Shown here piece after piece: positions 13,415 through 16,988 of a DNA stretch of 64,000 nucleotides. The notes below the pieces were generated by a model, which made no database searches, was not told the DNA's origin, and saw only the letters and a list, made by a program, of their open reading frames with translations. Position 1 is the stretch's first letter, and each line of letters begins with the position of its first letter. Source of the DNA: Pseudomonadota bacterium (GTDB lineage Bacteria; Pseudomonadota; Gammaproteobacteria; Acidiferrobacterales; Acidiferrobacteraceae). Position numbers and translations under genes: made by a program. The stretch covers positions 38,155-102,154 of the forward strand of contig JAKBUS010000001.1 in the NCBI GenBank assembly GCA_021841585.1. Direction: 5' to 3'.

Positions 13415-13460
13415 GCAATGGCCGCGATCTTAGGCGTTGCGCATTGCAATGACCGCGCAA
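13415..13460. promoter_or_regulatory. repeat/palindrome array upstream of the YbjQ-PspA cassette
   Basis: GCAATGGCCGCG (13415-13426) and GCAATGACCGCG (13446-13457), 31 bp apart; palindrome CATTGCAATG (13442-13451); arms TTGCGC (13437-13442) and GCGCAA (13455-13460). Confidence 0.4.
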
Positions 13461-13500
13461 GTGGTGTCAACTAACAAGGTTACTAATTTTTGGACCCTTC

Positions 13501-13887
13501 ATGGACGAAATCCGCGATTTCGATCTCCATGCCGCCTGGATCCGCCGGGCGCAAACCGACCTTCATGCCTTTCTGGAGGCCCTCGCCGCGCGCCTCGAGG
13601 GCGCGCTCCCGGGACGCGTGCAGGTGGAACACAAGCGCGACGGGCTGTTGAGCGCGACCCGCCACATAACCACCATCACCATCCAGGTCGACGGTAGTCG
13701 CTACCTCCTGGATGCCCGCAACCACGATATTCGCGCAAGCCGTCAGCACGAGGTGCGCGGCGTGGTGCTGAAGACCGAGTCCCTTCCGCTCGACCGCTGG
13801 CTGCAAGACCTGGAAGACGAGCTGCGGCGGCTGTCGGGGAGCCTGGAGGGCGCGCGGGGGATCCTGCAAGACTTTTTGACGTCATAG
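13501..13887 (+). CDS. uncharacterised 128-aa protein, first gene of the YbjQ-PspA cassette
   Basis: ORF with tight spacing to the next co-directional gene; no family recognised. Confidence 0.65.
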   Translation: MDEIRDFDLHAAWIRRAQTDLHAFLEALAARLEGALPGRVQVEHKRDGLLSATRHITTITIQVDGSRYLLDARNHDIRASRQHEVRGVVLKTESLPLDRWLQDLEDELRRLSGSLEGARGILQDFLTS

Positions 13888-13895
13888 GAGGCATT

Positions 13896-14795
13896 ATGGC
13901 CCGCTTCGGTGCACCCGGCGGTAACGCCCAAGACGACGCGGGCTCGCTCGCCCGGCAGACGGCGTGGAACGAGGCGCTGACGCGCGGCACGGTGCCGGCC
14001 TTCGTGAAGGAGCGGCTCGCCGAGACCATGACCGGCAAGCGGCCATGGGTCAGCACCGCCTCACCCGCGGGTCTATTGGCGCAACGCTCCCACGGCATCC
14101 GCCCGCTCGGGCTCGTCTCCGGCAACTGCTGGTTCCAGTTCGGCTACTCATGGACACGCGGCCACTACGAGGGCTGGCACACGGCGCTCGACCGCCTGCG
14201 CGTGGAGGCCGGGCTCATGGGCGCCAACGCGGTGGTCGATGTGACCCTGCGCGTGCGACACATGCCGGGCACCGAGAATGAAGGCCACATGGACTATGGT
14301 GTCATGGGCACGGCCGTGCGCCTGGATGCGCTGCGCGAGTCGACCAATCCGGCGCTCGCCACGGTCTCCGCCCTGGAGTTCGCGCGCCTGCTCGAATCCG
14401 GCATCGTGCCCGTGGGACTTGCCATCGGCGCGCATTATGACTGGTTCGTGGCGAACGGCTATCAGACAGCGAACGTGGCGTCTTTCTGGAACCAGGAGAT
14501 CGCCCCGCTCTCGAGCTTTCTGACGCGCGTGCGCCGCCAGGCCCTGCAGGAGCTGCGCGATGACGGCGTGCGGCTGGGCTCGGGCGTGCTTGCCCACACC
14601 CAGCATACCGAGCTCTACCGCGTGGAGCCCGACGAGAGCAATCCCTATCCGCGCTTCCTCGCGCGCTATATCGCGCTTGGCACCGCCATCCTCCACGACA
14701 GCCGCTCGCTACGCCCATTCGGCGTGCGCCCGGTAATGAGCGTGCGCAACCCGCGGCTGCTGGCCGCCACTGACACCGTAAGGGAGGTCCTGTAA
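13896..14795 (+). CDS. YbjQ-like (putative heavy-metal-binding domain) protein with two divergent domains
   Basis: GIRPLGLVSGNCWFQFG...LRVEAGLMGANAVVDVTLRV...YGVMGTAVRL and GIVPVGLAIGAHYDWF...QALQELRDDGVRLGSGV...YIALGTAIL. Confidence 0.7.
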   Translation: MARFGAPGGNAQDDAGSLARQTAWNEALTRGTVPAFVKERLAETMTGKRPWVSTASPAGLLAQRSHGIRPLGLVSGNCWFQFGYSWTRGHYEGWHTALDRLRVEAGLMGANAVVDVTLRVRHMPGTENEGHMDYGVMGTAVRLDALRESTNPALATVSALEFARLLESGIVPVGLAIGAHYDWFVANGYQTANVASFWNQEIAPLSSFLTRVRRQALQELRDDGVRLGSGVLAHTQHTELYRVEPDESNPYPRFLARYIALGTAILHDSRSLRPFGVRPVMSVRNPRLLAATDTVREVL

Positions 14796-14797
14796 CA

Positions 14798-15622
14798 ATG
14801 AGCGATACAGTCCCCGATCTGCCGCAACACGCGCGCGAACGCCTGGAGGGCCTACGCGACACGAGCCGCCGGGGCGGCATCTTCACCTCCGACTTCTCGG
14901 TCAACGAATTTCTCATGGTGGGCGAGGCGGGCTTCGAGCCGCTTGGTCTGGTGGTGGGCTCGTGCATCTATCACACCGGCATCCAGTACGCCGGATGGGC
15001 CAAGAACCAGGAAATGGCTGTGCTGTCGCAGGCCATGTACGAGGCCCGCGAGCTTGCCATGACGCGCATGGAGCAGGAGGCGCAGTCCTTATCGGCGGAC
15101 GGCGTGGTCGGCGTGCGCCTCGAGGTCAAGCGCATGGACTGGGACAAGGATATTCTCGAGTTCCTCGCCATCGGCACGGCCATTGCCCACAGCAAGGGCC
15201 ACCCCGGCTTCAAGGGCCCGTCCGGCAAGCCCTTTACGTCCGACCTCTCGGGCCAGGATCTCTGGATGCTGCTGCAGTCTGGCTACCGGCCGCTCGCCCT
15301 GGTCATGGGCTCCTGCGTGTATCACGTGGCCCATCAAGGCATGTTCCAGTCGCTTGGCAATGTCGGCCGCAACGTCGAGATGCCGCTTTTCACGCAAGCC
15401 ATGTACGACGCCCGCGAACTGGCCATGGAGCGCATGCAGCAAGAGGCCAAGGAGGCCGGCGCCGAAGGCGTGGTCGCAGTCCAGCTCCACGAGGGCTCGC
15501 ACAACTGGCAGCCACACGTCATCGAATTCTTCGCCATCGGCACGGCGGTCAAGGCCATAGAAGACGCGGCCATCATCCCTGAACGACTGATCCCGCAGAT
15601 TGTCATACCAGTAAACGACTAA
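14798..15622 (+). CDS. YbjQ-like protein with internal domain duplication
   Basis: GFEPLGLVVGSCIYHTGIQYAGW...AMYEARELAMTRMEQEA...LEFLAIGTAI repeated as GYRPLALVMGSCVYHVAHQGMF...AMYDARELAMERMQQEA...IEFFAIGTAV. Confidence 0.78.
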   Translation: MSDTVPDLPQHARERLEGLRDTSRRGGIFTSDFSVNEFLMVGEAGFEPLGLVVGSCIYHTGIQYAGWAKNQEMAVLSQAMYEARELAMTRMEQEAQSLSADGVVGVRLEVKRMDWDKDILEFLAIGTAIAHSKGHPGFKGPSGKPFTSDLSGQDLWMLLQSGYRPLALVMGSCVYHVAHQGMFQSLGNVGRNVEMPLFTQAMYDARELAMERMQQEAKEAGAEGVVAVQLHEGSHNWQPHVIEFFAIGTAVKAIEDAAIIPERLIPQIVIPVND

Positions 15623-15637
15623 GGTAGGGAGGTTCCC

Positions 15638-16333
15638 ATGAGTCTTTTCAAGCGCGCGGCCGAGGTCATAGAGGCCAAGTTCAGCAAGATCATCAATGCC
15701 GCCGAGGACCCGAACGACACCCTCGACCTCTCCTACGAAAAGATGCTTGCCGGCCTCCAGGAGACGCGCCGCCACCTCGCCGATGTCGTGACCGAACAGA
15801 AGGTCCTGGAGCAACAGATGGCGGGGGCGCAGGCCGAGATCGCGCGCCACGACGGCGATGCGAGGCTTGCCCTGCAATCGAACCGTGAGGACTTGGCGCG
15901 CGCCGCGCTGACCCAGAAGCAGGCGGCGACCGCGAAGCTTGCGTCGCTCACCGAGGCCCACGACGCCATCGTCGCGCAGGTCCAAAAGCTCGTCGAATAC
16001 GAACACAAGTTCCAGGACAAGATCGATGCCTTCCGCACCCAGAAGGAGGTCCTGAAGAGCCAATACGGCAGCGCCCAGGCCCAGGTCAAGGTCAACGAAT
16101 CGCTGTCGGGTCTGAGCGAGAAACTGGGCGGCGTGGGCGAGAGCGTACGCCGCGCGAAAGACAAGACCGAGCAGATGCAGGCGCGCGCCCAGGCGGTCGA
16201 CACGCTCGCCGAGACCGGCGTCCTGGATGACGGCGATGACCGCTCGCAGTCCGAGCGCGAGCTCGACAAGCTGCGCTCGGGGGGCGCCGTGGACGCGGAA
16301 CTCGAGCGCCTCAAGGGCGAGATGAAGAAATAG
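15638..16333 (+). CDS. PspA/IM30 (ESCRT-III-like) family coiled-coil protein
   Basis: MSLFKRAAEVIEAKFSKIINAAEDPNDTLDLSYEKMLAGLQETRRHLADVV N-terminus, long coiled coil. Confidence 0.85.
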   Translation: MSLFKRAAEVIEAKFSKIINAAEDPNDTLDLSYEKMLAGLQETRRHLADVVTEQKVLEQQMAGAQAEIARHDGDARLALQSNREDLARAALTQKQAATAKLASLTEAHDAIVAQVQKLVEYEHKFQDKIDAFRTQKEVLKSQYGSAQAQVKVNESLSGLSEKLGGVGESVRRAKDKTEQMQARAQAVDTLAETGVLDDGDDRSQSERELDKLRSGGAVDAELERLKGEMKK

Positions 16334-16572: not shown

Positions 16573-16779
16573 ATGACAGCGGTCACGGTTTCGGAAACAT
16601 ATCGGGTCGTCGTTCCTCGCGGGGCACGGCTCGCGCTCGGCATCCGTCCCGGCCAGCGCCTGCGCGTTTTGGTCTATGAGGGACGCGTGGAGCTCGTCTC
16701 CGAGCGGGATATCCGCGAGGCATGCGGCCTCCTTGGGCCCCTTGATACCATGGTACCGAGGGACGGGGATCGAACGTGA
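16573..16779 (+). CDS. AbrB/MazE-type antitoxin-like protein
   Basis: VSETYRVVVPRGARLALGIRPGQRLRVLVYEGRVELV resembles the swapped-hairpin AbrB domain; overlaps the next PIN ORF by 4 nt. Confidence 0.7.
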   Translation: MTAVTVSETYRVVVPRGARLALGIRPGQRLRVLVYEGRVELVSERDIREACGLLGPLDTMVPRDGDRT

Positions 16780-16988
16780 GCGTGGTGGATGCCTGCAGCT
16801 GGCTTGATACTTTGCGGGCGGCGAGCAGGCCCAAGTTTTTCGCGCCCGCTCTAGGCGACACAGAGCGGCTGGTCGTCCCGACGATAGGCCTTCTTGAGGT
16901 CTTCAAGCGCGCAGCGCAGCGGCGCGATGTCGGTTGGGCGCTGCAGGCCATTGCGCTCATGCGGGCGCCCGTCAGCCACGGCCGGTAG
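16776..16988 (+). pseudogene. truncated PIN-domain (VapC-like) toxin
   Basis: MSVVDACSWLDTL...FFAPALGDTERLVVPTIGLLEVFKRAAQRRDVGWALQAIALM then premature stop; C-terminal catalytic half missing. Confidence 0.65.

Follow-up and report, generated by a model that had tools for sequence, protein, structure and literature searches.

Four tightly packed genes that set two tandem YbjQ-like proteins beside a PspA-like protein raise the question of what these two protein families might do together. PspA, a bacterial relative of ESCRT-III, is from a family that coats and stabilises stressed membranes and limits proton leakage. To our knowledge, the partners of PspA in bacteria without PspB, PspC and PspF are largely an open matter, and we know of no established role for YbjQ, a widespread fold. 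A compact, lineage-crossing cassette linking YbjQ and PspA makes both questions testable in one operon. The genes lie within a 64,000-nucleotide stretch of DNA, the whole of which is referred to here as the window.

Gene layout and protein families

The four genes were found to fill positions 13501-16333 of the window with intergenic gaps of 8, 2 and 15 bp (Table 1), in agreement with the tightly packed, co-directional arrangement given in a preliminary description of this DNA. The host genome is 2.57 Mb in size and nearly complete (99.67%), and its closest relatives are Acidiferrobacter-type bacteria, for the most part MAGs. The cassette holds all of the YbjQ domains and the sole PspA of this genome. 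The TCAACT portion of an element upstream of A128 was conserved in 13 of 13 aligned Acidiferrobacteraceae-type loci, and the element was not recognised in other lineages; judged from its sequence, it is a putative promoter of the cassette. A regulon built on this element was rejected, as the sole second copy in the genome sits in coding-like sequence. On the other side of the cassette, positions 16573-16985 hold a MazE-like antitoxin gene (PF04014) and, overlapping it, an ORF of 70 aa whose weak PIN-domain match stays under the cut-off; the two may be a truncated toxin-antitoxin pair.

Table 1. Features of the cassette, in window coordinates
Feature	Positions	Strand	Basis or remark
Upstream element TTGCA[A/T]-N17-TCAACT	13444-13472	+	28 bp 5' of the A128 start; promoter-like spacing
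A128, 128 aa, family without match	13501-13887	+	No match in Pfam or NCBIfam; homologues in most cassettes; AlphaFold2
Y1, diverged tandem YbjQ protein, 299 aa	13896-14795	+	PF01906; profile alignment with Y2; domain comparisons
Y1 domains	about 14052-14333 and 14361-14705	+	
Y2, tandem YbjQ protein, 274 aa, most conserved cassette member	14798-15622	+	PF01906; conservation; predicted fold
Y2 domains	about 14894-15205 and 15233-15565	+	
PspA/IM30 (ESCRT-III-like) protein, 231 aa	15638-16333	+	PF04012; profile match to solved PspA/Vipp1 structures

The membership of Y1 and Y2 in the YbjQ family, as proposed in the preliminary description, was confirmed by matches to YbjQ_1 (PF01906, cut-off 23 bits) in two stretches of Y2 (83.1 bits) and in domain 1 of Y1 (30.6 bits), and profile searches did not place the repeated domains in an unrelated family. 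Domain 2 of Y1 was missed by the Pfam model. That each protein carries two domains, those of Y1 having diverged, was borne out by domain comparisons and by a Y1-Y2 profile alignment spanning 249 columns (E 7e-44). Domains 1 and 2 of Y2 share 49 of 101 aligned residues (49%; Z 37 against shuffles) and each Y1 domain resembles Y2 (Z 9-14.5); the direct likeness between the two Y1 domains is lost (Z 1.5). A short domain tree with long branches placed the first domain of Y1 with that of Y2 (SH-aLRT 94) and apart from the second domains, a pattern suggestive of the duplication of an ancestral tandem gene.

Y2 retains 55-96% identity across phyla. Its predicted structure (pLDDT 81) matched YbjQ crystal structures, with RcsF next; the model aligned to 1vr4_B with a TM-score of 0.77 by target and an rmsd of 1.1 over 84 columns (E 7e-4), and the YbjQ fold was also recovered by VIA-align (Z 6.4, rmsd 2.5 over 76 residues). 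YbjQ proteins of solved structure form pentamers (PMC4092069). For any assembly of the tandem proteins, a pair of stacked rings is no less likely than a pseudo-symmetric ring, because a two-domain chain that closes a five-domain ring leaves one domain over. Y1 and Y2 of the window itself showed neither a transmembrane segment nor a convincing amphipathic N-terminus, nor was a signal peptide or a lipobox visible in them, and searches of Pfam and NCBIfam gave no DNA-binding domain in any of the four proteins. Short aromatic/basic N-termini, e.g., MSWFDRF, are frequent among Y1 proteins and have inconsistent hydrophobic moments; docking of Y1 to the membrane through an amphipathic N-terminus is only suggestive.

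The fourth gene had been described as PspA-like, and PF04012 covered the whole of its product (residues 2-228, 102.2 bits, cut-off 33.9). The NCBIfam equivalog for canonical PspA, TIGR02977, was not reached (92 bits versus a cut-off of 243). The earlier observation that PspBC and PspF are not evident nearby also holds, since none lies beside the cassette; PspC (PF04024) was without a match in the entire host genome, the same search being positive for E. coli. TelA (PF05816) was likewise without a match in the host genome.

For A128, AlphaFold2 (pLDDT 78) predicted a succession of helix-helix, five strands and helix-helix. A Foldseek search of structures with this model gave nothing significant, and comparison with several frataxins gave Z 5.1-5.7 and rmsd 3.4-4.4 over 78-81 residues, with unrelated folds scoring similar Z. 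A trusted structural match to a named fold did not emerge. Homologues of A128 were also found on Streptomyces and Aulosira plasmids. A128 was present in 17 of the 18 genomes of the host's own family and in 0 of 42 other genomes of its order or class.

Conservation, variants and transfer of the cassette

A scan of 84,980 species genomes, in which near relatives are favoured, gave 66 loci with a Y2 relative (57-99% identity). Later genomes and plasmids were added, and the scoring covered 83 loci. Of these, 50 held A128 together with two YbjQ genes and PspA, and one held an expanded set in which PspA accompanies four YbjQ genes; the co-conservation that was to be checked by a survey of gene neighbourhoods was thereby established. 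A128 was not recognisable in 15 of the 83 loci, some of which are explained by a contig end. A further 17 of the 83 carried A128 and YbjQ with no adjacent PspA, two of them with TelA. The suggested pairing of YbjQ with PspA was consequently upheld as a linkage in the 50 loci, but PspA is not obligate: the core of the cassette is A128-Y1-Y2, three genes that Actinobacteria and Streptomyces plasmids carry with no PspA. Since PspA is not adjacent in the 17 loci, and some of these genomes hold PspA only in other known contexts, it was deduced that the core can work without a linked PspA. The idea of a cassette-type PspA kept in trans was dropped, four such PspAs being in PspAB/M48 contexts and one beside PspAA.

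The four-gene set occurred in Proteobacteria, in Planctomycetota-labelled MAGs and in Alicyclobacillaceae. The order was A128-Y1-Y2-PspA at most loci, Y2-PspA-A128-Y1 in Acidiphilium and Y1-Y2-PspA-A128 in Acidithiobacillus sulfuriphilus. Across lineages, no wider conserved neighbourhood was found besides shadow ORFs and scattered common families. Y2 relatives were sparse elsewhere: 1 of 248 other genomes in Pseudomonadota, 2 of 385 in one class of that phylum, 3 of 348 in the phylum of a Bacillota locus (starting genome included) and 11 of 396 in the phylum of an actinobacterial locus, a count that includes the starting genome and lone tandem YbjQ proteins. Hosts include Acidiphilium, Acidithiobacillus, Thiomonas, Acidocella, Alicyclobacillus and MAG series that we take to be from mine water. 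These names suggest an acid or metal setting for the cassette; cassette genes were also found in Streptomyces and in lichen and soil hosts, so the acid setting is not exclusive.

The Y2 tree conflicts with taxonomy. Acidiphilium and Acidocella, which belong to one NCBI family, sit in different starred clades, the betaproteobacterial Thiomonas clusters with Acidithiobacillus, and the gammaproteobacterial Dyella and Rhodanobacter cluster with the alphaproteobacterial Caulobacter. It was therefore concluded that the cassette has been transferred across lineages, of which many are acidophiles; Planctomycetota and like MAG labels may be binning errors, and the named isolates suffice for this conclusion. 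Pairwise distances were correlated between Y1 and Y2 (0.94) and between A128 and Y2 (0.83), for which shared descent is partly responsible; by these sequence comparisons, the cassette genes have been co-inherited as one unit. A phage origin was rejected (0 relatives among 50,697 phage records), as was spread by plasmids, relatives being on just two Streptomyces plasmids and one cyanobacterial plasmid. Anti-phage defence found no support in PADLOC: its defence models gave no match to A128, Y1 or Y2, and for PspA gave weak coiled-coil matches alone (E 0.002 or worse).

Several variants bear on how the cassette may be used. In two loci whose cassettes have no adjacent PspA, the envelope-stress protein TelA (PF05816) abuts A128 by 1 nt, namely L055:3366-4676 (Acidocella facilis) and L098:2627-4171 (another alphaproteobacterium). 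The contig of L055 ends soon after Y2, and a search of its genome did not find PspA. TelA in place of PspA is a possible effector swap, as read from two loci of which one is at a contig end. At L057, Y1 starts with a transmembrane helix. The expanded set (L130:581-6651) comprises A128, a triple-YbjQ protein, an M48 peptidase, two copies of Y1, Y2 and PspA, and the triple-YbjQ protein, with the peptidase and PspA beside it, ends in a C-terminal transmembrane segment. These two divergent members tie YbjQ proteins to the membrane.

Some loci showed other departures from the common form. The actinobacterial genomes L123-L125 encode a standalone tandem YbjQ protein without A128 or Y1, and beside that of L124 a protein beginning MERLSGLDAFFLYLET is encoded. 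In two MAGs of Actinobacteria, the gene after Y2 (L053:6907-7332 and L054:6976-7398) encodes a protein of 141-142 aa that is alike in both and gave no credible match in Pfam; it is possibly a lineage-specific extra member. In Thiomonas delicata (L042:4894-6801), a frameshift joins the greater part of Y1 to the open frame of Y2, which is either a sequencing error or a real fusion.

Proposed role and rival explanations

We hypothesize that the cassette is a single operon which spreads by horizontal transfer and preserves the integrity of the cytoplasmic membrane during stress, the stress probably being acid, dissolved metal or both; we hold this tentatively, at slightly under an even chance. In this mechanism, the YbjQ domains of Y1 and Y2 would join the two proteins into a scaffold, either a ring or stacked rings, docked on the inner side of the membrane. 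With A128 serving as its adaptor, this scaffold would sense damage or metal and would recruit or control PspA, which would polymerise on the bilayer and limit proton leakage; at loci without PspA, TelA or an unlinked effector might take the last step. This proposal is consistent with the tight spacing, with the recurrence of the four-gene set in three different orders, with the presence of the host's only PspA in the operon of a genome that lacks PspC, and with the transmembrane variants, the TelA loci, the RcsF-like fold and transfer as a unit. Against it stand the 17 loci with A128 but no adjacent PspA and the lack of a transmembrane segment in the window's own Y1 and Y2.

It was also considered that the core A128-Y1-Y2 handles metals or oxyanions, the YbjQ domains binding a metal through the Cys-x2-His and storing or sensing it, and PspA or TelA merely repairing damage by toxic ions. 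C173 and H176 in domain 2 of Y2 were invariant in 34 homologues, and if the protein has a metal or redox site, this Cys-x2-His is where it would most plausibly lie. The Pfam description of PF01906 is 'putative heavy-metal-binding', TelA is named after toxic-anion resistance, and metal-rich mine water is presumably home to many of the hosts. The metal label of YbjQ, however, is a prediction and not a measurement (PMC4092069), the Cys matching C173 is replaced by Ser in domain 1 of Y2 in 10 of 34 and kept in domain 1 of Y1 in 26 of 33, and no metal transporter or metal regulator was conserved near the cassette. Metal handling as the primary role was deemed unlikely. The operon position of the genome's sole PspA, together with the missing PspC, would equally suit a purely regulatory role, in which Y1 and Y2 hold PspA inactive and release it on stress in place of PspB, PspC and PspF, with no part as a scaffold; this was judged quite improbable. 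Against it, there are genomes and plasmids that conserve A128-Y1-Y2 with no PspA linked to it, and a DNA-binding domain is absent. Chance proximity of separate housekeeping or stress genes might be suspected from the genomes that hold Y1-Y2 alone or a lone tandem YbjQ protein. It is contradicted by the co-conservation, since the linkage outlasts changes of gene order and transfer between lineages and the flanking genes differ, and we give it very little credence.

A broader form of the membrane-protection proposal would make A128-Y1-Y2 a stand-alone, undescribed machine, in which a YbjQ-fold scaffold serves exchangeable effectors (PspA, TelA and an M48-peptidase-linked version) and has spread horizontally as portable membrane protection in acidic, metal-rich habitats. 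This is conceivable, and we would set its chance noticeably below even. If the cassette protects against protons or metals, it would be a candidate for a transferable unit that gives mine-water and bioleaching bacteria acid tolerance.

Comparison with known systems

The A128-Y1-Y2-PspA cassette looks like an undescribed form of a PspA-type stress system. Two broad surveys of PspA (PMC11237479, PMC9239133) do not bring up YbjQ in their main text, and among open-licence papers none was found that connects YbjQ with PspA or with stress in acidophiles. Like the known Psp systems (PspABC/PspF, LiaIH, PspA-PspAA and PspA-PspAB-metallopeptidase), it is a compact operon of PspA/IM30 with small partners; unlike in these, the partners are A128 and two tandem YbjQ proteins, in a genome with no PspC. 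Metallopeptidases occur in PspA-PspAB operons (PMC11237479), one of which was also observed in L093, and the M48 peptidase of the expanded cassette recalls this arrangement. The TelA/YaaN proteins of tellurite and antimicrobial tolerance are met in the two PspA-less cassettes where TelA abuts A128, whereas the host genome itself has no TelA; Listeria without TelA is sensitised to nisin (PMC12791056).

With the YbjQ/UPF0145 family (PF01906; the pentamers 1y2i, 1vr4 and 2gtc), Y2 has the sequence family and the predicted fold in common. It differs in having two domains per chain and a second tandem protein as its partner in the cassette, in the extra N-terminal motif FTSDLSxxEF before each Y2 domain, and in the invariant Cys-x2-His. 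YbjQ and the envelope-stress sensor RcsF have a common fold (PMC4092069), and the predicted Y2 domain resembles this E. coli outer-membrane stress sensor, which is a single-domain lipoprotein, whereas Y1 and Y2 are tandem proteins with no visible export signal.
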